64,000 nt of DNA from Streptomyces sp. NBC_00247 (GTDB lineage: Bacteria; Actinomycetota; Actinomycetes; Streptomycetales; Streptomycetaceae): positions 6,725,001-6,789,000 of the forward strand of contig NZ_CP108093.1 in the NCBI RefSeq assembly GCF_036188265.1, in the 5' to 3' direction. The notes under the pieces are model-generated. The model did not search any database. It was not told the DNA's origin and was given only the letters and a program-made list of their open reading frames with translations. The position numbers were made by a program, and so were the translations under genes. Of this stretch, positions 1 through 19,766 are shown one piece after another. The number at the start of each line of letters is the position of its first letter. The stretch's first letter is position 1.

Positions 1-2614
1 CGTCGAACTCGACATCAAGGAGTCCGCCCAGGGCGGCATGGGCCCCCACGGCATGCTCATCGGCGCCACCGGCTCCGGCAAGAGCGAACTGCTGCGCACC
101 CTGGTGCTGGGCCTGGCGCTCACCCACTCCTCCGAGACCCTCAACTTCGTGCTCGTCGACTTCAAGGGCGGCGCCACCTTCCTCGGAATGGACGAGCTGC
201 CGCACACCTCGGCCGTCATCACGAACCTGGCGGAGGAACTCCCCCTCGTCGGACGCATGCAGGACGCCCTGCACGGCGAACTGATGAGGCGCCAGGAACT
301 GCTGCGCCGGGCCGGGAACTACTCCTCCGTGCTGGAGTACGAGAAGGCCCGCGCCTCCGGCACTCCGCTGGCACCGCTGCCCTCCCTCTTCATCGTCGTC
401 GACGAGTTCTCCGAGCTCCTGTCCGCGCACCGTGACTTCATGGAACTCTTCGTGATGATCGGCCGTCTCGGGCGCTCGCTCGGCGTCCACCTCCTGCTCG
501 CCTCGCAACGGCTGGAGGAGGGCCGCATGCACCAGCTGGAGTCCCACCTCTCCTACCGCATCGGCCTGCGCACCTTCTCCGCGATCGAGAGCCGCGGCGT
601 GCTCGGTGTCCCCGACGCCTACCACCTGCCGCCCACTCCCGGCAGCGGCTACCTGAAGAGCGGCGTCGAGGCGCTGACCCGGTTCCGCGCCGCGTACGTC
701 TCCGGGGCGTACACGAGCAGGCGCGGAGCCGCCCAACAGGCTCAGATCGCCCGCCAGGTCGTGCCGTGGGGCACCGACTGGGTGGTGCCGCGCACCCTGC
801 CCGCCGCGCCCGAACCGGTGACCGCGGAGCCCGACTCGGGCGAGTCCCTCCTCGCGCTCGCCCTCGGCCGGCTGCGCGACAGCGGGCCGCCCGCCCGCCA
901 GGTGTGGCTGCCTCCGCTGGACGCCCCGCCCGCCCTCGACGCACTGCTGCCACCCCTGGTCCCGGACCCTGAATTCGGCCTGACCACGACGGGGTCCGCC
1001 GACCGGGGAAAGCTGCGCGTCCCCGTCGGCATCGTCGACAAGCCCTTCGACCAGGTGCGCGACCTGCTCACCGTCGACTTCTCGGGCGCGGGCGGACACC
1101 TCGCCGTCGCAGGAGGCCCGCAGAGCGGCAAGTCCACCGTGTTGCGGACCCTCATCGCCGCGCTCGCCCTCACCCACACCCCGCGCGAAGTGCAGTTCTA
1201 CTGCCTGGACTTCGGGGGAGGCGCGCTGCTCGGCCTGTCCGGACTGCCGCACGTCGGCGGGGTCGCCGGCCGTCTCGACCGGGAGCGGATCTCCCGCACC
1301 CTCGCCGAGGTCACCTCGCTGCTCAACCGGCGGGAACTGTTCTTCCAGGAGCAGGGCATCGACTCCATGGCCACCTACCGCAGGCGGCGGGCCGAGGGGC
1401 AGTACCCGGACGAACCGCTGGGTGACGTCTTCCTCGTCGTGGACGGCTGGTCCACTGTACGCAGCGACATGTTCGACGACATCGCGGTCTTCAACGGCAT
1501 CGCCACCCGGGGCCTCAACTACGGCGTCCACCTCATGGTCAGCACCTCCCGCTGGGTGGAGCTGTCCGCCGCCCTCCGCGACCAGGTCGGCACCCGCCTG
1601 GAGCTGCGGATGGGCGACCCGATGGACTCCGCCGTCGACATCCGCAAGGCCGGCACCGTGCCCGCCGTGCCCGGACGCGGTCTGAGCAACGAGAAGCTCC
1701 ACTTCCTCGCCGCACTCCCGCGCATCGACGGCGGCGAGGACGCGGAGGACCTCACGGACGCGCTCGCGGACCTCGTCGAGGCCGTCGCGGAGAACTGGGA
1801 CGCCCCGCCGGCCCCGCCCGTCCGCATGCTGCCGGCCCAGCTCACCGCCGCCGACCTGCCGCCGGCCGACCCGGAGCGGCCGCTGCGCGTCCCGTTCGGC
1901 TTGGACGAAGCCGAACTGGCGCCCATCTGGCACGACTTCGCTCAGAGCCCGCACCTGATGCTGGTCGGGGACACGGAGAGCGGCAAGACCAGTGCGCTGC
2001 GGCTGCTCGTCCAGCAGATCATCGCGAACCACACCCCCGAACAGGCGCGCATCCTGGTGGTCGACTACCGCCGCGAGCTCGTCGAGGCGGTCCCCGAGGA
2101 GTACCGGCTCGGCCACGCGGTGGCGGCGGACCCGCTGCGCGAACTCGTCGACGGGGTCACCCGGGCGATGGTCGTCCGCTCCCCGGGCGAGGACATTTCC
2201 CCGGCCCGGATGCGGCGGGCCGACTGGTGGACCGGGCCGCGCGTGTTCGTGCTCGTCGATGACTACGAGATGGTCGGCACCGGCTTCAGCGTCCCCTTCG
2301 AACCGCTGCTGCCGCATATTCCGCTCGGCTACGAGGTCGGCCTCCACCTCGTCGTGGCCCGCGCGTCGACCGGCGCGTCACGCATGGACCCCCTGATGCG
2401 CAAGCTCCAAGAGGTCAACTCCCCGGCCCTCCAGCTGTCCTGCCCGACCTCGGAGGGATACGTCTTCGACAGCGTCAAGCCGAGGATCCTGCCGCCGGGG
2501 CGTGCGCTGCGGATAGCCCGCCGCAAGGCGGCGCTGGTCCAGATCGCGCTTCCCCGTGAGGTGGCGCCGCCGAAGGGGGAGCGGGAGGAACAGGGTGTGT
2601 CCGGCGGATCCTGA
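1..2614 (+). CDS. eccC: Type VII secretion ATPase EccC (5' end missing)
   Basis: The reading frame is open from base 2, so the N-terminal membrane part lies upstream of the window. Three FtsK/SpoIIIE-type ATPase modules follow in order. D1 has Walker A GATGSGKS and Walker B with a catalytic glutamate (IVVDEFSE). D2 has GGPQSGKS, but its Walker B reads LVVDGW, without the glutamate. D3 has GDTESGKT and LVDDYE. This is the single-chain EccCa+EccCb architecture. In this family D1 drives substrate export across the membrane, and D2/D3 bind EsxB-type signal sequences; the degenerate D2 fits that. The stop lies inside an inverted-repeat element, so the last nine codons belong to it. The next gene is convergent and mycosin-like. 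Identification is firm; substrates are not visible here. Confidence 0.93.
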   Translation, partial: VELDIKESAQGGMGPHGMLIGATGSGKSELLRTLVLGLALTHSSETLNFVLVDFKGGATFLGMDELPHTSAVITNLAEELPLVGRMQDALHGELMRRQELLRRAGNYSSVLEYEKARASGTPLAPLPSLFIVVDEFSELLSAHRDFMELFVMIGRLGRSLGVHLLLASQRLEEGRMHQLESHLSYRIGLRTFSAIESRGVLGVPDAYHLPPTPGSGYLKSGVEALTRFRAAYVSGAYTSRRGAAQQAQIARQVVPWGTDWVVPRTLPAAPEPVTAEPDSGESLLALALGRLRDSGPPARQVWLPPLDAPPALDALLPPLVPDPEFGLTTTGSADRGKLRVPVGIVDKPFDQVRDLLTVDFSGAGGHLAVAGGPQSGKSTVLRTLIAALALTHTPREVQFYCLDFGGGALLGLSGLPHVGGVAGRLDRERISRTLAEVTSLLNRRELFFQEQGIDSMATYRRRRAEGQYPDEPLGDVFLVVDGWSTVRSDMFDDIAVFNGIATRGLNYGVHLMVSTSRWVELSAALRDQVGTRLELRMGDPMDSAVDIRKAGTVPAVPGRGLSNEKLHFLAALPRIDGGEDAEDLTDALADLVEAVAENWDAPPAPPVRMLPAQLTAADLPPADPERPLRVPFGLDEAELAPIWHDFAQSPHLMLVGDTESGKTSALRLLVQQIIANHTPEQARILVVDYRRELVEAVPEEYRLGHAVAADPLRELVDGVTRAMVVRSPGEDISPARMRRADWWTGPRVFVLVDDYEMVGTGFSVPFEPLLPHIPLGYEVGLHLVVARASTGASRMDPLMRKLQEVNSPALQLSCPTSEGYVFDSVKPRILPPGRALRIARRKAALVQIALPREVAPPKGEREEQGVSGGS

Positions 2615-2761: not shown

Positions 2762-3964
2762 TCAGGCGGTGCCGCCGCTCCCGCGGGTGTCCCCCGTACC
2801 CAGCCGTCCCGGCCGCCAGCCCCTGGCCCGCCCCCGCGGCAGCACCAAGGCGAGGAACGCCACGAGCAGGGCCACCCCCGCGGCGCCCGCCGTGACCAGC
2901 AGCGCGGTGTTCCTGGCGCCCGCGGCGTCCGGCGGCGGCACCGGCCGTACCGGGTCCGGGCGCGCCGCCACCGCCCGCGAGGCCGGGGCCTCGGCGCCCG
3001 CCACCGCGCCGTAGGGGTCCAGCGCGGGCAGGTCCGCCGGGTACGCCGTACGCAGCAGCCTCTCCCGCACCTGGGCCGCGTCCAGCTCGGGGTGGTAGGA
3101 GCGCACCAGCGCCGCCGCGCCCGCCGTCACCGCCGCCGCCAGCGACGCGCCGGAGCCCGTCCACATGCCGCCGCCCACCGGGCCCGGGCCGACGAGCGCG
3201 TCACCGGGCGCGGTGAGGTCGGCACGCGTGTAGGGCGGGGCACCGTCCGGACGAGTGCCCTGCGGGCCGGTGTCCAGTACGGCGAGGACGCTCTCCGGAG
3301 GCGCGGGAGCGGGTTCGGCGGGGGCATCGGCACTGGTGGACAGCGGCACACTGTCCGCCGCCGCCGGGGCCACGACCAGCGAGTCCTCGGCCGCGGCCAC
3401 CGCCAGAGCCTCCCGTACCGCCTTGTCCGCGCCGTTCAGCGGCGCGGACACGACGATCACACCGGCCCCGCGCTCGGCCGCCGTCCGCACCCCGGCCGCC
3501 AGCCGCGCCGGGTCGGATTCGCCGCGGACGCCCGTGCCCCGTACGGCCAGAATCCTCGCCCGCGGCGCGACCCCGGCGAAGCCCTGGCCGGGAGTGGCCG
3601 CCCCCGCGACGAGGCCCGCCTGGAAGGTCCCTCGTCCCACGCAGTCCTCGTCCGCGTCACCCACCGCGTCGACCCGGCCGGCCGGCACGGCGGGCACGTC
3701 GCTCACCCCGGTGCCGACGATCGCGACCGTCACACCCCGCCCCTGCGACAGGGTCCACACATGGTCCAGGCCGAGCGCCTGGCGCGTCCAGGGGGCGTCG
3801 GAGGTGGCACGGCCCTCGGCGGTCGTGCACGCCTGCTGCGGGGACAGTCGCTCAGGGACCCCGGGCAGCACCACTCGTCCGTCGCCGTCCTCCGCGAGAG
3901 CGAGCCGGACCGGCAGGACGGTGAGAGCGGCGCAGAGCAGCACAAGGGTCGTACGGCGGTGCAT
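2762..3964 (-). CDS. Mycosin-like subtilisin-fold protein, probably proteolytically inactive
   Basis: 400 residues: signal peptide (about 1-24), subtilase-fold domain (about 60-310), Pro/Ala-rich linker and one C-terminal membrane helix (about 357-379), the layout of type VII mycosins (MycP). Two of three triad residues are replaced. The Asp motif, normally DTG, reads VGTGV with Gly84; the His motif, normally GHGT, reads GRGT with Arg111. The Ser motif survives (GSGASLAAA, Ser274). The oxyanion Asn region reads APAAADS, so the Asn also seems lost. The ATG at 3964 has an AGAGG ribosome site. The frame is intact with normal codon use, so this looks like a maintained pseudoprotease, perhaps structural in the secretion complex. 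Mycosins have been reported to stabilise ESX complexes independently of proteolysis. Confidence 0.85.
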   Translation of the reverse strand: MHRRTTLVLLCAALTVLPVRLALAEDGDGRVVLPGVPERLSPQQACTTAEGRATSDAPWTRQALGLDHVWTLSQGRGVTVAIVGTGVSDVPAVPAGRVDAVGDADEDCVGRGTFQAGLVAGAATPGQGFAGVAPRARILAVRGTGVRGESDPARLAAGVRTAAERGAGVIVVSAPLNGADKAVREALAVAAAEDSLVVAPAAADSVPLSTSADAPAEPAPAPPESVLAVLDTGPQGTRPDGAPPYTRADLTAPGDALVGPGPVGGGMWTGSGASLAAAVTAGAAALVRSYHPELDAAQVRERLLRTAYPADLPALDPYGAVAGAEAPASRAVAARPDPVRPVPPPDAAGARNTALLVTAGAAGVALLVAFLALVLPRGRARGWRPGRLGTGDTRGSGGTA

Positions 3965-4054: not shown

Positions 4055-7000
4055 TCAGGAAGGCTGCGGCAGAGCGGTCAGGTCCTCCGGCAACAGGAGC
4101 CGCAGATCCTCCAGGCTCGGCGCCGCGACCACGCTCAGCCGACCGGCCTGACGCGTCATCATCTCCTCCAGGGTCTGCCGCGCGAGACGTGCGTTGCCGA
4201 ACGCGCGGCCCCTGGGCAGCCCGTCGAAGTGCGCGCGCAGCGCGGTGGCGGCGCCGGGCGCGCACTCGTAACCGTTGTCGACGGCGTGCTGGCGCACGAT
4301 CGTGACCAGTTCGTCGGAGGAGTAGTCGGGGAACTCGACGTGCCGGGGGAAACGGGACGCGAGACCCGGGTTGGAGCCCAGGAAGCGCGCCATCTCCTCG
4401 GTGTAGCCCGCCGCGATCACCACCACCTCGTCGCGGTGGTCCTCCATCAGCTTCAGGAGAGTGTCCACGGCCTCCTGGCCGAAGTCGGACGAACCGCCGC
4501 TCCCCGCGGGGGTGAGGGTGTACGCCTCGTCGATGAACAGCACACCGCCGAGCGCCCGCGTGAACACCTCCTTCGTGAGCTGCGCGGTGTGCCCGACCCA
4601 CCGGCCCACCAGATCGGCCCGCGACACCTCGACCAGCTGCCCGCGCGGCAGCACACCGAGTGAGGCCAGCAGTTCTCCGTACAGCCGGGCCACCGTCGTC
4701 TTGCCGGTCCCGGGCGGGCCCGCGAAGACCAAGTGGTTGCTGATGCGGGGCGCGGGCAGTCCGGCCTCGGCACGGCGGCGTGCGGTGGCCAGCAGGTTGA
4801 CCAGGTCGCCCACCTCCCGTTTGACCGCGGCGAGCCCCACCAGCGCGTCCAGCCGCAGCAGCGGGTCGTCGTCGGCCTTGGGGTCCACGGCCGCGTTCAC
4901 GCCGACGTCCTTCGCGGTCAGTACCGCCAGATCGCGTTCGTTCACCTCCGCCATGACCGCCAGCCGGGACGCCTGTCGGTCCACCATCTCCTCGAACACC
5001 TTGCGCGCGGTGCGCCCGTTGCCGAACGACGCATCGCGCGGAATGGCGTCGAAGTGGCCGTGCAACGCGGTCCTGGCCGCCGGTTCGAGCTCGTAGCGGT
5101 GCCCCGCGCACATCCGCTCGACGATGGTGACCAGCTCGTCCGAGGTGTAGTCGGTGAACTCCACGGTGCGGGTGAACCGGGAAGCCAGACCGGGGTTGGA
5201 AGAGAGGAAACCGGTCATCTCCTGCGGGTAGCCGGCCGCTACGACCACCACGTCCTCCCGGTGGTCCTCCATCAGCTTCACCAGCGTGTCGATGGCCTCC
5301 CGGCCGAAGTCCGCGCCCGAACCGCCCCCGTCGGACACCAGGGTGTACGCCTCGTCGACGAACAGCACTCCGCCCAGCGCCTTGTTGAACGTCTCGGTGG
5401 TCTTGATGGCGGTGCCGCCCACGATCTGGGCCACCAGGTCGGCCCGCGAGACCTCCACCAGGTGCCCGCTGCGCAGCACTCCGAGCGACGCGAGGATCGA
5501 GCCGTACAGCCGGGCCACCGTCGTCTTGCCGGTTCCGGGCGGGCCCGCGAACACCAGATGGCGGCTCATCGGCGGGGCGGGCATGCCGAGGCTGGCGCGC
5601 CGCTGGGCCAGCCGGTTCAGGTTGATCAGCGTCAGGACCTGCTGCTTCACGTCGGCGAGACCGATCAGGGACTCCAGCTCGGCCACCGGGCCGGTGTCGG
5701 CGTCCGGTTCCGCCGCCGTGGGGACCGCGCCTCCCGGGAGCCGTCCGTCGCCCGCCGCCTCGGCACCCGCGGCGCTGCCCCAGGCGTCCGGAGCGCCGTT
5801 GTCCGCGCTGTTCAGGCCCTCGACGGCGAGCCGGTCGCCGGGCACCGCCTGCCGCAGCCCGCTGCCCCGGTTGTCCCGTACCGTGCAGCCGGTCAGCGAC
5901 GCCGGGTCGGTACCCTCGACCCGTACGCCGTCGGCGCCGGAGCCGGACACTTCGCAGGACTTCAGGGCCGCCCGCGCGCCCGCCGCGACCAGGACTCCGT
6001 GCTCACCCGAGCCGGTGACCCGCACCCGCGCGGCGGACAGCTCGCCCTCCGGATCGATCCGGACGCCCGCACCGGACGCTCCCTCGACGGCGGTGTCGCG
6101 CAGGGTGACCGTGCCGAGCGCCCCGACCCGCACGCCCGACTCGGCCGCCGTCCGCAGCGTGCCGCCGCCGACGTACAGGCTGCCGTGCCCCGAGACGTGC
6201 ACGGCCGAGCCGGCCGACGCCTCGACGACGCACTCCTCGAGCCGGCCTCGCCCGTCCTTGGCGACCTCCACCCCGTGCGACCCCGACCGGGTGACGGTCG
6301 CGCGGCGCAGCAGCGGGTTGGCACCGGTACGTACGACGATGCCGGACCCGCCCGCGTCCCGTACCTCCAGGCGGTCGAACTCACCCGCCGAGTCCTCGTC
6401 GAGCAGTACTCCGACGGCCTCCGCATCCGCCACGACGGTCCCGGTCAGTACCGGCGAGGAGAACCCGTTGACCCGGATCCCCGCGTCCCGCGCGGAGGTG
6501 AACACGCAGTTCTCGAACGTGCCCCGGCTGCGTTCGGTCACGAACAGCCCGTGGCCCGCCGTCCGTTCCGTCCGGCAGGCGGTCAGGGCGGGGGAACTGC
6601 CGGCGCCCAGCACGAAGCCGTGCCCGGTCGTGTCGGTGACCGTCACCTCCTCCAGCACGGTGTGCCCGGTCGAGCTGACGTACACCCCGACCACCGCCTG
6701 CCGGACCGAACCGCGCACCATGCGCACCGTGCTGTCCTCCTCGACGGCGACCCCGGGCTTGTCCGTCGCGGATATCTCGCAGTCCTCCAGGCGCAGGTGC
6801 GCCTGGCCGTTCGTCAGCACCCCGTTGCCGCGGGTGTCGCGCAGCCTGCCGCCGCGTACGGTGATCCGCCCGCGCTCGCCGGCGACCACCGCGGAGGTGC
6901 CAAGATGCTCGACGACACAGTCCTCGACGAAACTCTCGTTCCCGGACGTCGAGACCACACCGGCGCCCGCCGGATTGCTGACCCGGCACTCGCGCAGGAC

Positions 7001-7372
7001 GAGGGACCCGCTGCCCCGCGCGAACAGCGCCGCCCACGCCGAGCCGTGCACTTCGCACCGGTCCATCGCGATCTGCCCGCGCGGTGAGTCGACGACCGGC
7101 AGCTCGTCGTCGTGGCCGCGCAGCACCAGATCGCTCACCAGCACGGCGTCGCCGGTGAAGGTCAGCGCGGTGCCGCGCCGGGGCGCCAGCTCCACCGTCC
7201 CGGCACCCTCGGACGCGGTCAGTGTGATCGCGGCGGAAACGGTGAGGGACTCCTGGTAGCGGCCGGGACCGATACTGACCACGGCCCCGTTACGGGCCCG
7301 TGCGACGGCCTCCGCCACGGTGCGGAAATCGCCCGAACCGTCCACTGCGACGGTGAGCATCTGGCGTGACAC
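4055..7372 (-). CDS. Right-handed beta-helix protein fused to two CbxX/EccA-type AAA ATPase domains
   Basis: About 1105 residues. The chosen start is GTG at 7372, seven bases after GGGAGGT; earlier in-frame ATGs lie in non-coding-like sequence. Residues 1 to about 530 are parallel beta-helix repeats with recurring G-V-V/E-D-C rungs, as in pectate-lyase-like proteins. Two AAA domains of the CbxX/CfxQ/EccA class follow, each with Walker A GPPGTGKT (about 607 and 885) and Walker B VLF[VI]DEAYTL. The second has the usual pore segment VGHTA; the first reads VGGTA. EccA-type ATPases are cytosolic chaperones of type VII secretion, and the location beside eccC suggests the same. A fused beta-helix could be a substrate- or partner-binding platform; that part is inference. 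The mycosin-like gene follows on the same strand. Confidence 0.85.
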   Translation of the reverse strand: MSRQMLTVAVDGSGDFRTVAEAVARARNGAVVSIGPGRYQESLTVSAAITLTASEGAGTVELAPRRGTALTFTGDAVLVSDLVLRGHDDELPVVDSPRGQIAMDRCEVHGSAWAALFARGSGSLVLRECRVSNPAGAGVVSTSGNESFVEDCVVEHLGTSAVVAGERGRITVRGGRLRDTRGNGVLTNGQAHLRLEDCEISATDKPGVAVEEDSTVRMVRGSVRQAVVGVYVSSTGHTVLEEVTVTDTTGHGFVLGAGSSPALTACRTERTAGHGLFVTERSRGTFENCVFTSARDAGIRVNGFSSPVLTGTVVADAEAVGVLLDEDSAGEFDRLEVRDAGGSGIVVRTGANPLLRRATVTRSGSHGVEVAKDGRGRLEECVVEASAGSAVHVSGHGSLYVGGGTLRTAAESGVRVGALGTVTLRDTAVEGASGAGVRIDPEGELSAARVRVTGSGEHGVLVAAGARAALKSCEVSGSGADGVRVEGTDPASLTGCTVRDNRGSGLRQAVPGDRLAVEGLNSADNGAPDAWGSAAGAEAAGDGRLPGGAVPTAAEPDADTGPVAELESLIGLADVKQQVLTLINLNRLAQRRASLGMPAPPMSRHLVFAGPPGTGKTTVARLYGSILASLGVLRSGHLVEVSRADLVAQIVGGTAIKTTETFNKALGGVLFVDEAYTLVSDGGGSGADFGREAIDTLVKLMEDHREDVVVVAAGYPQEMTGFLSSNPGLASRFTRTVEFTDYTSDELVTIVERMCAGHRYELEPAARTALHGHFDAIPRDASFGNGRTARKVFEEMVDRQASRLAVMAEVNERDLAVLTAKDVGVNAAVDPKADDDPLLRLDALVGLAAVKREVGDLVNLLATARRRAEAGLPAPRISNHLVFAGPPGTGKTTVARLYGELLASLGVLPRGQLVEVSRADLVGRWVGHTAQLTKEVFTRALGGVLFIDEAYTLTPAGSGGSSDFGQEAVDTLLKLMEDHRDEVVVIAAGYTEEMARFLGSNPGLASRFPRHVEFPDYSSDELVTIVRQHAVDNGYECAPGAATALRAHFDGLPRGRAFGNARLARQTLEEMMTRQAGRLSVVAAPSLEDLRLLLPEDLTALPQPS

Positions 7373-12490: not shown

Positions 12491-13351
12491 ATGGGGTGGG
12501 TTCAGGCGGGCGACTACGAAGTCGCCCTGGAGGCGGGCAAGGTGGTCTGCCGCAACGGGAAGGGCCGGCGGCTGCAGTCCGTTCCGGCCAAACTGAAGGA
12601 CGATCCGGCGGTCGTCGGGCTCCGGCAGTTGACCGAATGGCTGGAGCGGCACGACCACCAGTGCCTGAAGGACGTCGAGCAGTGGATGGTGCGTTCGCTT
12701 CCCGTCCCCACGGCCGTGCTCGCCCGCGTCTGGCCCGACCCGGCGTGGCGGGCCGCCCTGCGGGACGTCGTGGTCACCGGAGCTGACGGTGGGATCGCCG
12801 GGTTCCTGCGCGACGTCGACCCCGACCGCGGTCTCGGCCTCGTCGACCTGGACGGCGACACGGTCCGCATCACCCCGGACGTCGTGAGCGTGCCCCACCC
12901 CGTACTCCTCGACGACCTCGACGACCTGCGCGAATTCGCGGTCGAGCTGGCGGTGAGCCAGAACGTGGACCAGCTGTTCCGCGAGGTGTGGCGCCGCCCG
13001 CCCGGACTCGCCCCGGACACGACCTCCGTGGACACCTACGCCGGCGGCGTGTTCAAGGAACTGCGCTTCCTGCACGGCCGCGTCACCCAACTCGGGTACC
13101 GGTCGCGCGGCGGATACGCGGTCTGCCCGGCAGTCGAGGGCGGTGCCACCGTCGAGGCACGCATCTGGATCGGCGAGCACGACGGCTACGGCGAGTACGA
13201 CACCGAGACGGGCCCCCTGGGCTGGACCGACCCCGCGGGGCGCGCGCTGGCGGCCGCCGAGGTCGGCCCGGTCGCGTGGTCCGAGGGCATGCGCATGGCG
13301 GCGGCGCTCTACGCCGGCCGCGACGTGGCGGACGAGGAGCGGGCGGCATGA
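12491..13351 (+). CDS. DUF4132 (MolR-like) domain protein, first gene of the MoxR/VWA/SWIM operon
   Basis: 286 residues, start ATG 12491 after GGGGAG. The central part, DPAWRAALRDVVV, GFLRDVDPDRGLGLVDLDGDTV, then VPHPVLLDDLDDLREFAVEL and REVWRRP, matches the DUF4132 domain found in E. coli MolR/YehI, although here only the minimal domain is present (E. coli YehI is over 1000 residues). The C-terminal part may bind or sense something (GGYAVCPAVEGGATVEARIWIGEHDGY) but has no recognisable active site. It overlaps the next gene by four bases (ATGA). Domain call fairly confident; function unknown. Confidence 0.75.
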   Translation: MGWVQAGDYEVALEAGKVVCRNGKGRRLQSVPAKLKDDPAVVGLRQLTEWLERHDHQCLKDVEQWMVRSLPVPTAVLARVWPDPAWRAALRDVVVTGADGGIAGFLRDVDPDRGLGLVDLDGDTVRITPDVVSVPHPVLLDDLDDLREFAVELAVSQNVDQLFREVWRRPPGLAPDTTSVDTYAGGVFKELRFLHGRVTQLGYRSRGGYAVCPAVEGGATVEARIWIGEHDGYGEYDTETGPLGWTDPAGRALAAAEVGPVAWSEGMRMAAALYAGRDVADEERAA

Positions 13352-16300
13352 GCATCACGACGACGAACACCCACACGATCCCGACGGCGGAGGGCGAGGC
13401 GTCCCTCCCCGCCCAGGACCGGGGTGAGAGCATCTCCCGCACCGCCGCAGAGGCACGCGCGGCGGCCCTGCTGGACGCGGGCGCGATCCTCCCGGCAGGT
13501 ACCACCGACCGGGACGACGCCGACGCGCTGACCGCCCGCACCTACACCCACACCGCCCTCGACGACCGCGCCGTGGTCCGGCTCGTTCCCGGCACTCTCG
13601 GCGAAGCCGAGGACCTGGCGCTGGAGTTCCTCGGGCTGGCCCGGACCTCCGAGGCGCCCGTCGTGGGACAGGTGCGCCGCGAGACTCTGGGCTTCCCGGC
13701 GTGGGCGCTGGTCAACGACCCGGCCAACGGACACCATGCCCTGGCCCTGGTCAAGGACATCGAGCGGCTGGGCCGGCAGGCCAGAACCCGTGCCGGAGCG
13801 GCCAAGGAGGGATTCGACGAACTCGGCACCCGGCTCGGCCGTGCCGTCCCCCACTTCCTCCCCACCTACTACGAGCAGGTCGCACGCCTTTTCCTCCAGG
13901 CCGAGAACACCACCTACGCCGCCTCCTTCTTCGGCAAGGCCCGCGAGGCCGAGCGGGTGCACGGACTGGTCGTGGACGAGGAGCGGCAGCGAGCCGTCTT
14001 CCTGGAGTTCGCCTTCGCCGGGGCGCTGACGGTCAAGGCGCTGCGGCAGTACGTGCGGGACCTGGTGGCCCGGCTCGCACCGGTGGACGCCTGGGCACAG
14101 TTCCGACGTCTGCTGGTCGAGCGCTGCGCGGCCGGCATGCCGCCGTACGCGGCGCTGCCGCAGGACGTACGCGCGCTGGTCAAGGCCGCCGGTCTGGACC
14201 GCGAGGCCGCCGAACGCGAGCTGATGGCCGATCTGATCGGGTCCCCGGGCGTCGTCCGCGCGCCGACCTCGTTCTGGACGACCTACCGTTGCGCGCTCGT
14301 CGCCCTCGCCCGACAGGACGAGGCCGTGCGGGTCCGGCTCCTGGGCTTCTTCCCGGAGACCTTCGGCGAGACCAAAAAGGACACGGACGGCGACGCCGAC
14401 TGGCTCGTGTTGCTGGCCGATTCCGGCGCGGAGGACCTGCTCACCGCCCACCCGGACACCTCCGAGGGCGCAGCCTCCGACTTCGCCTCGTCCGCCTCGG
14501 CCACCGCGCCCGTCTCCCCGGCCGACTGGCTCGCCCGCTGGGAGGCGCACCGCCGGCGCAACCGCGCCACCGCGGCCCGCAGTCCGCAGACCCTCGGCCT
14601 CGCCGCCCGGATGGCGGACCGGCTGCGCGCAGACGGGCGTCCTGTCGAGTTGTTCCAGGGCCGCTGGCAGCGCAACGCGGACCTGGACCTTCTCGACCTC
14701 TGCCTGGCCTCCGGCGTCCCCGTCGTCGAGCCGGACGATCAGGGCACCGGACAGCCTGCCGGTGTCCCTCTCGGCCAGTGGCTCACCGACACCGCGCCCG
14801 GCGCGCGGGACCTCGCCGCCGTCGCCGAACGGCCGGTCTTCCGCGCCCTCCTGCGCCGGAACATCGGCGGCCTCGGCAGCGAACGCAGTCAGCGGCTGGG
14901 CGACGCCGGCATGGCGAAGCTGGCAGCGCATCCCGCGCTCTCCCCGATCCTCCGGGAGTGGCTGACCGTCTGCGCCGAGGAGTACACCGCCGCCCGTGGG
15001 CTTCCCGGGCTGCGCACCGCGCAGAACAAACTCTCGCCGTTCCGCACCGTGATCGCGGACGTCGCCCCAAAGGCCGTACGGCTCCTCAAGGACCACGACG
15101 TCGTGCCCCTGCTCGCTTCCACTCTGCGTACCGGCGTCCTCGACGAGCTGGGCTGGCCCGCGCTCGACGAGACGTACGCCGAACTCGCCGCCGAGGTCGC
15201 TTCCGCGACACGTCAGCGGCATCACCGGTCGGAGAGCGTCGGTGTCACCGGCGCCTGGCCCGCGCTGATCCTGCACACCCTCGAACGAGCCGTCGTCATC
15301 GGCCCGGAGGGTGTTCTGCTCCGGCACACCCTGCGGCTGCCCGCCGCCGTCGACCACTGGCGGACGTTCGCCTTCCGCTACGTCGACGGCGAGTTGCTGG
15401 TCATCTGGTGGGAGGACGGCACGCAGCGCGGCTACTGGTCGCACCGCCCCGCCGAGGTGTTCACCGTCGCCGGCGAGCAGATCCCCCGCTGGGGCGGCTC
15501 CGGCGCCTCGGACGACGTGTGTCTGCCCCTGCCCGGCGGCGGCCGGGCCACCGGCGGGAAGGCCCTGCACGCGGGCGACACCTCCCTCCCGCCCCAGCGT
15601 GCCGTCATCTCCGACGGCACCGGCCACTGGCGCGAAGGCCACCAGGGTTCCCAGCAGGTGTGGCTGGAATACGACCCGGCCGCCGGTACCCACGGCCGTG
15701 CGTCCCTCCCCGCCTTCCTCCGCTCCGGGGTTCGGGACAGCACCCGGCTGCTTGCCGAGCACTGCCAGGTGCTGCCCCTCCAGCCCGGTCTGGAGTCCAC
15801 GCCGTTCGGCACGGACGGCACGGTCCTCGGCCGCTGGGTCCGCCGCACGGTCGACGAACCCGGCACGGCAGCCCCGGCCCACGGGCACCGGATCGTCGCG
15901 GGCACCCCCGACGGACACACGGTGACCCTGCCGTACCCGCTGCCCGGGGGAGGCTCCCCGGTGCCGCTCGGCGCCCTCACCCTGCCCGGCGGGTCACGGC
16001 CTGTCGCGGTCCTGCGCCACCGCTCCGTCGAAGCGCACCCGGCGGACACGGACGGCACCGGTGGCGCCCTGTGGTCCGTCAACCCCGGCTCCTCCGGCGG
16101 GAACGACGTGGCGGGCACCCCCTACGTACCTCCCGTCGCCTACTGGCACGCCCTGCGCCCCAGGGACGAGCGGGGCTCCGCGGTCCTGCGGAACCTGACC
16201 GACTCCCGGGCGGGGGAGCTGTTCGAGCAGGTCGCCGTCGCGGTCGTCCAGCACCTCCAGGCGTTCCGGGCCGTCGAGGAGTACACGGGGCCCTCGTCGA

Positions 16301-18546
16301 GGGAGCTGTGCGAGGAAGCCGTCGCCCGGGTGCTGCCCGAGGTGACCGACCCACGGCTCCTCGCGGGCATCACCGGGCTCGTCCGGAACGCGGTGGACCG
16401 GGCTGCCGCAGCCGACCGGTACCTCGAACCGCCCAAGCCCGTGCAGCCCGCCGCTCCCCAGGACCTCGCGCGCACCCGAGGCATGTTCTTCGACCACGAG
16501 CCCGAGCACGGCGACGACACGACCCTGCAGAACGCCTCCGCCTGGAGCTCCGAGCGGATGCGCGGCGGCTGGTGGGGAGCCGGACGCCGGTGGACCGTGA
16601 TCCGGCAGATCCTCGCCGTCAACCATGTCCTCGCCGGCCGGCCGGCGTTCGGCCCGCCCGCGCCGTCCAAGGTCCCGTTCACGTCCGTGGACGGCTGGCA
16701 ACGGGACGAGTACACCGTGCCCGGCGACTCCCTGAGCTGGACCTCCGTCCTCGGCATGCTGCCCGAACTCTCCTACCGTGCAGCCTCGGCGACCACGTCC
16801 CCCGAACACCGCACCGGGCTTCTCGTGCTGCTGGAAGCCCTCGCCGCAGGCCCGCTGGCCGACCCGGCGGGCACCGTCCGGCAGGTGGTGCTCGTCGAGC
16901 CGTACGACGCGGGGACTCCAGGGACGGGACGCCACGAGCCCGTGGACCGCCTCGGCCAGGTGCTGCGCAGAGGTGCCCGCACCGTGGTGGTTCTCGACAG
17001 CCGCGGCCAGAACTCCCGGAACGACGCCGCACGCTGGCTCGCCCTGGACCACGATCCGACCGGCGCCTTCGGCCCCGTCCCCGGCTTCACCCTGGACCGC
17101 GAGTACGTGTACCGGAACGGCATCGCCCGCGACCGGCTCACCCGGCTCACCACCCAGGTACGGGAGCAGGGCCCGGCACCCTGGAGTCCGGAGGCCGCCG
17201 AGGCGTTCCACGCGGCCACCGGCATCGGCCCCCTCCAGTCCGCCGCGCTGCTGTCCGGCGCCGTGCGGGAACCCGGCACCGAGGCGCTGGCGCTGCTCGG
17301 AGTGAAAACGCGTGCCTTCGAGGCCGCCCAGGCCGGGCTGGACGCACTGCCCGCCGCCGACCTGCACGCCCTGCTCCGGGCTCTGCTCCCCGCGGACCCG
17401 GCCGAGCTCTGGTCCACCGGCCCCGACGTCGGGGCCGCCGCCGAGGTCTGGCAGGAGAGACTGGCCTCCGTCGTCCGCGTCCCCGAGGAACTGGACCTCG
17501 ACCTGTCGGGTACCACCGCGGACGCCGTCGACCTGATCCTCAACACCGGCTCCCGGACCTGGCTCGCCCACGGCACCGATGTACCGGACGGCACCGGCCG
17601 CCCGGTGCTGCGCCTGGTGAGCGCACGCGGTGCCCTCGTTCCGGTACTCACCGCCCTGCGCACCCTCGCCTACACGTTGCCGTACGGGCATCCCCTGCGG
17701 GCGCACCTGCCCGTCGGGCTCACGGCTCTGCGCGGCCACCTCGCCGACCCGGGCCTGGTGCTGGACCTCGGTCTGCACTGGACCGAGGCGGGGAACTCGA
17801 TCGGCCCCGCGGTCCGCGCCGCCCACCAGCTCCCCGAGTCCGGCGGCGCCGGCGCGGACGGACTGGTCCGGGTCGGTACGGCGCTGCTCCTCGCCCCCGA
17901 CCACGGCAGCAGCGAGAGGCTGCTGATTCGCCCGGCCGGCCTGGCGGGCCCCGACGATCCGGCGTTCGGCTTCGTCGAGGGCATCGTCGCCCGCCACGCC
18001 ACCGGCGATCTGCTCGCCCTGCGCGCGCTGCTGGGCGAAGAGACGTTCGCGCTGGCCGCGTCGGGCGCCCCCGACGGCTCCCCGCTCCACCCTGTCCAGG
18101 ACCCGACACGGGCGGTGCCGGACCTTCTGGCCGAGGCCGTCGACGCCCTCGGCCTGAGCGAGGACGCCGCCGCTCTCTACCTGATGCTGCTCGCCCTGCC
18201 CGACCCCACGGACCGCAACTGTGTCCGGTGGACCGGGTGGAAACCGGCACGGGTCAAGAAGGCCCGTGCGGAGCTCACCGCCACCGACCTCGTCGTGGAG
18301 GCGAAGCGCTCCCGCGCCGGGCGCACGCTGTTCCTCCCCTGCGGCTGGCTGGAACGCGGCGCCCCCGGACTGCCGCTGGAGACCTGGAAGGAAAAGCTGT
18401 ACCCGGTGGCCGGGTACGCCCGGACCCTGCCCCACCACCCCGTGCCCGCGCTGTTCGCAGCCGCCTGGGCACGGGTCCGCGGCGGGGACGCCCCCGCTTT
18501 CGAAGAACTGGACACCCGCGCAACCCGGAAGGGCCGCCGCCGATGA
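13348..18546 (+). CDS. 1732-residue protein of unknown function in the MoxR/VWA operon
   Basis: Start ATG 13348 overlaps the previous stop by four bases and the gene ends overlapping the MoxR gene, so it is an integral operon member. No signal peptide or membrane segment. The N-terminal third is alpha-helical (for example 100-330, including FLPTYYEQVARLFLQAENTTYAASFFGKAREAERVHGL), suggestive of a helical-repeat scaffold. The middle (about 640-900) has beta-rich segments such as WRTFAFRYVDGELLVIWWEDG. The C-terminal end (about 1600-1660) resembles a winged-helix-like stretch (RWTGWKPARVKKARAELTATDLV). I recognise no catalytic motif. It is probably the large scaffold or target-recognition subunit of the system. 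Confidence 0.8.
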   Translation: MSITTTNTHTIPTAEGEASLPAQDRGESISRTAAEARAAALLDAGAILPAGTTDRDDADALTARTYTHTALDDRAVVRLVPGTLGEAEDLALEFLGLARTSEAPVVGQVRRETLGFPAWALVNDPANGHHALALVKDIERLGRQARTRAGAAKEGFDELGTRLGRAVPHFLPTYYEQVARLFLQAENTTYAASFFGKAREAERVHGLVVDEERQRAVFLEFAFAGALTVKALRQYVRDLVARLAPVDAWAQFRRLLVERCAAGMPPYAALPQDVRALVKAAGLDREAAERELMADLIGSPGVVRAPTSFWTTYRCALVALARQDEAVRVRLLGFFPETFGETKKDTDGDADWLVLLADSGAEDLLTAHPDTSEGAASDFASSASATAPVSPADWLARWEAHRRRNRATAARSPQTLGLAARMADRLRADGRPVELFQGRWQRNADLDLLDLCLASGVPVVEPDDQGTGQPAGVPLGQWLTDTAPGARDLAAVAERPVFRALLRRNIGGLGSERSQRLGDAGMAKLAAHPALSPILREWLTVCAEEYTAARGLPGLRTAQNKLSPFRTVIADVAPKAVRLLKDHDVVPLLASTLRTGVLDELGWPALDETYAELAAEVASATRQRHHRSESVGVTGAWPALILHTLERAVVIGPEGVLLRHTLRLPAAVDHWRTFAFRYVDGELLVIWWEDGTQRGYWSHRPAEVFTVAGEQIPRWGGSGASDDVCLPLPGGGRATGGKALHAGDTSLPPQRAVISDGTGHWREGHQGSQQVWLEYDPAAGTHGRASLPAFLRSGVRDSTRLLAEHCQVLPLQPGLESTPFGTDGTVLGRWVRRTVDEPGTAAPAHGHRIVAGTPDGHTVTLPYPLPGGGSPVPLGALTLPGGSRPVAVLRHRSVEAHPADTDGTGGALWSVNPGSSGGNDVAGTPYVPPVAYWHALRPRDERGSAVLRNLTDSRAGELFEQVAVAVVQHLQAFRAVEEYTGPSSRELCEEAVARVLPEVTDPRLLAGITGLVRNAVDRAAAADRYLEPPKPVQPAAPQDLARTRGMFFDHEPEHGDDTTLQNASAWSSERMRGGWWGAGRRWTVIRQILAVNHVLAGRPAFGPPAPSKVPFTSVDGWQRDEYTVPGDSLSWTSVLGMLPELSYRAASATTSPEHRTGLLVLLEALAAGPLADPAGTVRQVVLVEPYDAGTPGTGRHEPVDRLGQVLRRGARTVVVLDSRGQNSRNDAARWLALDHDPTGAFGPVPGFTLDREYVYRNGIARDRLTRLTTQVREQGPAPWSPEAAEAFHAATGIGPLQSAALLSGAVREPGTEALALLGVKTRAFEAAQAGLDALPAADLHALLRALLPADPAELWSTGPDVGAAAEVWQERLASVVRVPEELDLDLSGTTADAVDLILNTGSRTWLAHGTDVPDGTGRPVLRLVSARGALVPVLTALRTLAYTLPYGHPLRAHLPVGLTALRGHLADPGLVLDLGLHWTEAGNSIGPAVRAAHQLPESGGAGADGLVRVGTALLLAPDHGSSERLLIRPAGLAGPDDPAFGFVEGIVARHATGDLLALRALLGEETFALAASGAPDGSPLHPVQDPTRAVPDLLAEAVDALGLSEDAAALYLMLLALPDPTDRNCVRWTGWKPARVKKARAELTATDLVVEAKRSRAGRTLFLPCGWLERGAPGLPLETWKEKLYPVAGYARTLPHHPVPALFAAAWARVRGGDAPAFEELDTRATRKGRRR

Positions 18547-19766
18547 CGAACGACACCACACCCACCATGGACAGCACCGCCGCGGCCCGCGTCCCGGATC
18601 GGGCGGCGCCGCCCGGCCGGGAGCACCGCCAGACCACGCCGCCCGAGGACCGGTACGCCACCGAGCTGGCCTTCCTGGCCGTCCACGACGCAGGGCCCCG
18701 CCCACCCGGCTGGCTGCTCACCCCGCGTGCCGTCGTCACCTTCGTGATGGGCAGCGCGGGCGAGGCACTGAGCCTGCCGAAGGGCGCCCGGTCAGGAGCC
18801 GGGGTGCCGCTCCGCCTGGTGATCGAACAGAAGTTCGTCGGCGAGCGCGCCCTGGTCGAACGGTGCGTGGTCACCCTCGCGGGAGAGCGCGGACTTCTCC
18901 TCGTGGGAGAACCCGGCACCGCCAAGTCCATGCTCTCCGAGCTGCTGTCTGCGGCCGTCTGCGGAACCAGCGCTCTCACCGTGCAAGGCACCGCCGGCAC
19001 CACCGAGGACCAGCTCAGGTACGGCTGGAACTACGCGCTGCTGCTCGCCCAGGGGCCCACCGAGCAGGCCCTGGTGCCCTCGCCGGTGCTCACGGCCATG
19101 ACCCGGGGGGCCGTCGCCCGTATCGAGGAGGTCACCCGCTGCCTGCCGGAGGTCCAGGACGCCCTCGTGTCGCTGCTTTCCGAGCGGCGGATCGCGGTCC
19201 CCGAACTGGCGGGCGGCGAAGGCTCCCAGGTGCACGCGGCCCCCGGCTTCACCCTCATCGCCACCGCCAACCTGCGGGACAAGGGCGTCTCGGAGATGTC
19301 CGCCGCGCTGAAGCGGCGCTTCAACTTCGAGACCGTGGGTCCCATCGGGGACGTGGACGCCGAGACCGCGCTCGTCCGGCGCCAGTCCCGGGCGGCCGTC
19401 GAACGGGTGGGCGCCGCCTACCAGGTGGACGACGCGGTCCTCGAAGCCCTTGTCACCGCCTTCCGGGACCTGCGTGAGGGCCACTCGGTGGAGGGCTGGG
19501 AGGTCGAGCGCCCCTCCACGGTGATGAGCACGGCGGAGGCTGTCTCCGTCGCGGGCTCCCTGGGCCTGGCCGCCGCCTACTTCCCCGGTGACCGGGACGT
19601 GCTCTCCCTCCTGCCCGGCCATCTGCTCGGGGTCGTCCGAAAGGACGACCCCGCCGACGCGGCACGGCTGCTGGGGTACTGGGACGGGCCGGTGCGCAGG
19701 CGTGCGGAGCAGGGTTCGGCCACCTGGCGTGCCCTGTGGGACCTGCGCGCGGTGCTGGAGAACTGA
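18543..19766 (+). CDS. MoxR-type AAA+ ATPase (YehL-like)
   Basis: 407 residues, ATG at 18543 overlapping the previous stop. Walker A is GEPGTAKS (122-129), the GTAK variant typical of MoxR proteins. The Walker B region follows the RG[AE]-VARIEEVTRCLPEVQDALVSLLSERR pattern, sensor 1 is LIATANLRDKGVSEMSAALKRRF, with the arginine-finger segment at its end. MoxR ATPases act with VWA-domain partners as chaperones that mature or activate protein complexes. Here a VWA protein is encoded immediately downstream. E. coli YehL, YehM, YehP and YehQ form the equivalent set. The roughly 60-residue N-terminal extension is low-complexity. Confidence 0.92.
   Translation: MTNDTTPTMDSTAAARVPDRAAPPGREHRQTTPPEDRYATELAFLAVHDAGPRPPGWLLTPRAVVTFVMGSAGEALSLPKGARSGAGVPLRLVIEQKFVGERALVERCVVTLAGERGLLLVGEPGTAKSMLSELLSAAVCGTSALTVQGTAGTTEDQLRYGWNYALLLAQGPTEQALVPSPVLTAMTRGAVARIEEVTRCLPEVQDALVSLLSERRIAVPELAGGEGSQVHAAPGFTLIATANLRDKGVSEMSAALKRRFNFETVGPIGDVDAETALVRRQSRAAVERVGAAYQVDDAVLEALVTAFRDLREGHSVEGWEVERPSTVMSTAEAVSVAGSLGLAAAYFPGDRDVLSLLPGHLLGVVRKDDPADAARLLGYWDGPVRRRAEQGSATWRALWDLRAVLEN

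Follow-up and report, generated by a model that had tools for sequence, protein, structure and literature searches.

The mycosin-like protein encoded in the window (the whole stretch of 64,000 nucleotides analysed here, G000:C1:6725001-6789000 of a single-contig Streptomyces genome) is most likely kept as a structural part of a T7SS that has no EccE, without normal serine-protease action. We infer both its lack of proteolytic activity and its structural role, because a subtilisin fold, an export signal and a membrane anchor are predicted, the catalytic chemistry is absent, and the mycobacterial MycP proteins offer a precedent. Exported and anchored in the membrane, such a pseudo-mycosin would clamp the periplasmic ring of EccB and, by analogy with MycP1 and MycP5 in mycobacteria, may stabilise the EccB-EccC-EccD complex. 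In M. marinum, the passages concerned of PMC5082899 report that MycP1 and MycP5 are required for secretion and for the stability of the ESX complex, and that secretion continues with MycP1 S354A or with the oxyanion mutant N239Y, MycP5 S461A being likewise functional. In the M. tuberculosis ESX-5 structure, as described in the relevant part of PMC8131196, the EccB5 chamber is capped by a MycP5 trimer. From these parts of the two papers (PMC5082899, PMC8131196), mycosins hold ESX complexes together independently of protease activity.

The protein resembles MycP1, MycP3 and MycP5 in its subtilisin fold, export signal, C-terminal helix and gene position beside eccB, eccC and eccD; however, it differs from them in having no catalytic Asp or His, no oxyanion Asn and no Thr before the Ser. 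It shares triad and oxyanion loss with the laboratory-made inactive mycosins (MycP1 S354A and N239Y; MycP5 S461A), mutants in which the T7SS works according to the sections on them, yet the case in the window is natural, clade-wide and involves several residues together. Literature covered through titles and abstracts, with most subscription journals outside that scope, yielded no catalytically dead Streptomyces mycosins and no paper on a mycosin pseudoprotease.

Fold, export signals and catalytic positions

The gene lies on the complementary strand at 2762..3964 and encodes 400 aa in an open frame, from an ATG start to a stop codon within the interval. Plus-strand coding of 2762-3964 was ruled out by the minus-strand mycosin match and by codon bias. 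The N-terminus resembles a signal peptide over residues 1–24 (3893..3964, minus strand), where a hydropathy scan, as distinct from a dedicated signal predictor, places its best window from residue 6, the signal end being set by eye. A C-terminal membrane helix is predicted at residues 347–380 (2825..2926, minus strand), from the model helix and from a hydropathy peak at 356–357 inside it. The first-pass annotation had described an intact frame with a signal peptide and a membrane anchor beside eccC, and these features stand, the gene lying tail to tail with eccC. The protein matches Pfam Peptidase_S8 (subtilase; 1.7e-19) and the NCBIfam model T7SS_mycosin (TIGR03921; 8.8e-53 over residues 65–380). 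Its score of 179.6 bits falls below the TIGR03921 equivalog cut-off of 278.75, a cut-off also missed (267.2) by one of the intact mycosin pair near this genome's EccE locus. An AlphaFold2 model built with 80 sequences has a mean pLDDT of 87.7 and a subtilisin/mycosin fold; Foldseek ranked MycP1 structures at the top, and VIA-align superposed the model on MycP1 4m1z_B with Z 34.6 and 2.7 A rmsd over 260 residues, a score at which other subtilisins tie.

The columns of the catalytic residues were set by alignment to the MycP1 structure 4hvl and to 36 subtilase-family relatives. At the Asp motif, VAVIDTGV has become VAIVGTGV, so that Gly84 (codon 3713..3715, minus strand) stands in place of Asp; at the His motif, DCDAHGT reads DCVGRGT, with Arg111 (3632..3634, minus strand) for His. 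The Ser motif AGTSFAA reads SGASLAA, which keeps the nucleophile position as Ser274 (3143..3145, minus strand) and replaces the preceding Thr by Ala273. The oxyanion motif AAAGN is APAAA, and Ala203 (3356..3358, minus strand) occupies the Asn position. Both the Thr before the Ser and the Gly before the Asn have roles in the oxyanion hole. The alignments thus agree with the earlier reading of the letters that Asp and His were lost and Ser was kept, and they settle the loss of the oxyanion Asn, which had been given there as apparent. Since the protein's only His residues are at positions 2, 68 and 291, an alignment that would place the real His elsewhere, which was looked for, is not credible. 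The Asn changed in the mutant MycP1 N239Y appears to fall in the same column as Ala203 (4hvl chain position 217 plus an offset of 22 suggested by the VIA superposition).

Spread of the losses and selection among relatives

The window protein shares the Gly/Arg/Ala/Ser pattern with its four closest relatives (L041, L186, L198 and L052, at 84, 67, 66 and 67% identity). The same substitutions in four other genomes rule out isolated decay or a sequencing error. A profile search (E<=1e-70) of 295 genomes of the genus gave 90 matches in 81 genomes, of which 72 had a single match when clade matches only are counted. In the named collection, the best 80 of 219 matches gave 79 loci; S. palmae (69%), an Actinomadura, a Catellatospora and a Crossiella are among the matches listed, and this sample is biased at the first triad position because one of the two search patterns admits only Asp or Gly there. 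A pattern scan of viral contigs yielded zero relatives.

For the alignment, 166 mycosin-like frames were combined with the window protein and MycP1 (168 rows) and reduced to 153 distinct rows for a quick tree, computed without the four catalytic columns, by dropping six identical sequences and nine named rows: L207_04, L107_06, L122_02, the "own others" of L006 and L007, the partial L099_08 and L239_02, P0002 (a duplicate of G000win_10), and L083_04, a second Micromonospora pseudo-mycosin. Two further loci with profile matches, L197 and L234, are absent from the mycosin table, no mycosin gene having been called there. On this tree the oxyanion Asn shows two kept/lost changes. One concerns a clade of 111 rows, none of which has the Asn, and whose basal joints are weakly supported (SH-aLRT 90 for the set without L103 and 92 for a core of 105 rows). 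The core excludes six pseudo-mycosins (L103, L080, L072, L083, L085 and L087) and a five-row GQD group, and that group is the second, separate loss.

In the core, the Asn is lost in 105/105 rows (Pro in 88, Ala in 12, Gly in 4, Tyr in 1), the Gly before it is kept in 3/105, and the Thr before the Ser survives in 1/105, being lost in the other 104. Outside the clade, all 37 DHNS rows (Asp, His, Asn and Ser present) keep that Thr. The triad is broken in 40/105 core rows, the Ser position itself being altered in 24/105, and Asp, His and Ser are all kept in the remaining 65. The minimum number of kept/lost changes within the core, over three trees, is 10–11 for Asp, 9–10 for His and 5 for Ser, with the counts of 11, 10 and 5 from the 153-row tree and those of 10, 9 and 5 from two further trees with wider masking. 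Because 65/105 rows keep the triad and 0/105 keep the Asn, the clade-wide shared event, as read from these sequences, is the loss of the oxyanion residues, and losses of triad residues are dispersed across it. Orthologues with an intact triad had been named in advance as grounds for doubting the first-pass annotation: they do exist, in those 65 rows, yet none of them keeps the oxyanion Asn. It follows for annotation that 65/105 clade proteins seem active when judged on the triad alone.

These same 65 rows are what favours residual or altered catalysis, in which an ancestor lost the oxyanion Asn and kept a slow triad reaction, for example self-processing, that sub-branches including that of the window lost later. 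The triad columns also change more slowly than the median column: Asp, His and Ser columns show 14, 10 and 9 changes against a median of 16 over 355 columns (42nd, 32nd and 30th percentile). We nevertheless think residual catalysis quite improbable. It cannot apply to the window protein, which has neither Asp nor His, the core has given up the Asn altogether and nearly all of its preceding Gly and of the Thr, and PMC4182778 reports that in PC1/3 a change of the oxyanion residue impairs activity. The below-median change and the 65 rows with a triad do mean that the triad residues are under some constraint in other members, and speak against simple free drift. Even so, these residues vary more than the motifs in which they lie: His is present in 81/105 core rows, and the residues around it (Asp107, Cys108, Gly110, Gly112 and Ala116) are each present in 105/105.

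Purifying selection acts on the clade genes, whose frames are open: dN/dS is 0.17–0.45 over 15 chosen pairs among 20 sequences, and the pairs of the window protein with its four relatives give 0.45, 0.39, 0.40 and 0.32. The many changes of the catalytic residues could be read as neutral decay of a gene that is no longer needed; however, an open frame with a dN/dS of 0.32–0.45 in the window protein, the conserved Cys and Gly near the missing His, the retained anchors and one pattern held across 66–84% identity make it very improbable indeed. The selection for a non-proteolytic role proposed at first is supported insofar as a conserved role goes, by the clade-wide loss, by purifying selection and by the published work on mycosins, and that this role is non-proteolytic is the probable reading.

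Other degenerate subtilases were seen during these searches. A second, independent group of pseudo-subtilases (L086, L089, L093, L109 and L112, each with its match near 10 kb) has Gly, Gln, Asp and Gly or Ala at the four positions; EccC was not found within the flanks examined, and by eye the neighbours resemble glycosyltransferase and glycosidase genes. Outside Streptomyces, a change of His to Arg or another loss is seen in mycosins at EccC loci of Micromonospora (L083, L085, L103), Virgisporangium (L087) and Nocardiopsis (L080), and L083 has two degenerate mycosins in a single locus.

The EccE-less locus and its genome

The pseudo-mycosin is encoded together with eccB, eccC, eccD and WXG100 genes. 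In order along the locus come eccB, eccD, eccC, the pseudo-mycosin gene and an EccA-like gene; eccC is on the plus strand, and eccB, eccD and the pseudo-mycosin gene are on the minus strand. Only the 3' part of eccC is in the window (1..2614, plus strand); the whole gene, of 1316 aa, spans G000:C1:6723664-6727614 and starts outside it. The EccA-like protein of ~1105 aa (4055..7372, minus strand, with a GTG start at 7372 picked by homology) has an N-terminal right-handed beta-helix (PF13229, 2e-44) and two AAA domains (AAA, 1.7e-37 in two stretches), and scores 480.1 bits with T7SS_EccA, over the cut-off of 466.65, and higher, 522.9, with spore_V_K. The EccC of the window has an EccC_b match above cut-off. 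On the orthologous locus L041, EccB, EccC and EccD all exceed the curated cut-offs for a T7SSa, the eccC homologue with both EccC_a and EccC_b; the window genes cluster with those of L041, and the window EccB matches solved EccBs. There is no EccE at the window locus, and the only EccE match of the genome is at 1.514 Mb. Among 11 genomes (nine of the genus and two of a sister family), no EccE was found at the loci of the window type, and one of the 11 has no EccE match at all. Past eccB come WXG100, lone7_assoc_B and AAWKG proteins, as well as one of 3042 aa that has a WXG100-like domain. Further inside the window, two very long overlapping frames of 1852 and 2021 aa lie at 12988-18546 and 13701-19766 on the plus strand.

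The EccE-type Streptomyces T7SS (like that of S. coelicolor and S. scabies, treated in parts of PMC8401907) shares EccB, EccC, EccD and WXG100 proteins with the window type. In this genome, however, it is accompanied by two intact DHNS mycosins, whereas both EccE and an intact mycosin are absent from the window type. The relevant passages of the same paper report that several Streptomyces have a second ESX copy without eccE, which is possibly the window type, so the EccE-less type of system may have been described before. The main text of PMC8401907 does not contain the word "mycosin", and its passages on this copy do not discuss catalytic residues.

Three EccC loci in the genome are above cut-off: that of the window, one near 1.50 Mb and one near 0.19 Mb. 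The first-pass annotation had offered a decoy role in regulating a second mycosin that is active, and for such a partner within the locus there is no support: a search of the genome with the mycosin model found no second mycosin near the window locus, and the T7SS mycosins that are intact map to 1.507-1.511 Mb, with EccE. A broader form of the idea is a pseudo-protease decoy or peptide binder that keeps the groove and regulates secretion, either by binding substrates or in competition with an active mycosin. Such a function would suit the retention of Ser274 and of the predicted fold, the intact mycosins in the EccE-containing T7SS, and a paralogue at the second locus of the same type, near 0.19 Mb (G000:C1:188543, 47%), that keeps Asp, His and Ser with Pro at the oxyanion position. 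We still regard the decoy as unlikely, given that the window locus has no active mycosin, that the Ser position has changed in nearly a quarter of the core, and that most genomes have only one clade match, a count in which the intact mycosins of other systems do not figure. The structural role remains the reading that we prefer.

The beta-helix part of the EccA-like protein was searched for separately in a draw of 295 genomes of the genus and gave strong matches (E<=1e-100) at 89 places in 80 genomes, each of which also belongs to the 81 genomes carrying a clade mycosin. A clade mycosin is within 10 kb of 85/89 of these places and within 40 kb of 87/89, and the remaining 2/89 are on contigs without a mycosin match. 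The oxyanion Asn is lost in 102/102 rows with a beta-helix EccA; in rows without it, the Asn is kept in 36 and lost in 14, some of which may lie at contig edges. As the rows are non-independent and belong nearly to one clade, we make no causal claim between the beta-helix and the oxyanion loss.

Related systems with and without mycosins

A quick EccC tree (61 chosen rows, LG+G4) joins the pseudo-mycosin loci, a sister pair (L050 and L051) and a third type into one 53-row lineage with support 100, and gives no order among the three. The sister pair has intact DHNS mycosins, and the beta-helix EccA was not found at its loci. The tree also places the Catellatospora locus L072, whose mycosin is degenerate, with the third type (support 83, with a long-branch warning).

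The third type was reached through 16 weaker beta-helix matches, from which 12 loci were examined; the sample omits G207:C513 and G108:C46, and at G283 a clade mycosin lay close by. Of the 12, L247 and L251 are partial, one (L256) has a mycosin, and nine are left (L248/L259, L249/L260, L250/L261, L252/L262, L253/L263, L254/L264, L255/L265, L257/L266 and L258/L267). These nine Streptomyces loci carry EccC, EccD, EccB and the beta-helix EccA, and neither a profile search nor tblastn with ten mycosin queries found a mycosin in them or in flanks of ~13–15 kb beyond eccC and 6–7 kb beyond eccA. In G232, assembled as one contig, the sole EccC above cut-off is of the third type, and the nearest mycosin-model match, a 1119-aa frame, is ~82 kb away. 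The negative searches at nine loci and the distance in G232 make a mycosin-free T7SS likely, if unproven, and because a related type apparently lacks a mycosin, the mycosin cap may be dispensable in the lineage of the window. Six of the nine loci have a protein of 865–1035 aa between eccB and eccA, and the other three have shorter frames only; the protein has no Pfam match in the six tested and gives a poor AlphaFold model (mean pLDDT 43.9).

The partner of the mycosin was also compared. Compared with mycobacterial ESX, the window locus has no EccE, and its EccB lacks the tryptophans that are buried with MycP5: Tyr and Leu stand here in place of EccB5 Trp437 and Trp469, both of which are buried with Trp523 of MycP5. 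Beside Asn-less mycosins, both tryptophans are present in 0/91 EccBs and the first one in 1/91. The second position is Trp in 13/16 EccBs beside DHNS mycosins, in 0/91 beside Asn-less ones and in 0/9 of the mycosin-free type. The sister systems L050 and L051 also lack the EccB5 tryptophans, and because their mycosins are intact, this co-variation says nothing about contact with the mycosin. On these sequences, a MycP5-type EccB interface cannot be assumed for the pseudo-mycosin. The exact string GIPGAP in EccB (48/91 beside Asn-less mycosins, 1/16 beside DHNS, 3/9 in the mycosin-free type) is not diagnostic.

We hold it to be an evenly balanced question whether an EccE-less actinobacterial T7SS lineage has abandoned mycosin proteolysis, with an intact branch, a pseudo-mycosin branch in which the oxyanion hole was dismantled once and the triad eroded repeatedly, and a mycosin-free branch. 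If true, protease activity, and even the mycosin cap, would be optional in T7SSa machines. The Asn-less clade, its intact sister and the apparently mycosin-free relative form an evolutionary series with which the structural and proteolytic roles could be separated in harmless Streptomyces.

Several smaller observations concern individual loci. EccC matches above cut-off at G023:C1:4365257-4366963 and G023:C2:197474-199213 have no mycosin-model match nearby. At L256:5526-9461 (G078), the beta-helix EccA and the mycosin are in one long called frame, whereas the search split EccA over two frames; gene fusion, frameshifting or misassembly would account for this arrangement. The EccA-like gene is split or shortened at L045, L184, L197, L217 and L233, where pseudogenes, assembly errors or gene-call errors are possible. 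Upstream of the window, the 3042-aa protein (L039:2-9130) and an AAWKG-family protein (L039:10013-12919) lie beside Esx genes, and both are possible substrates secreted by this system.
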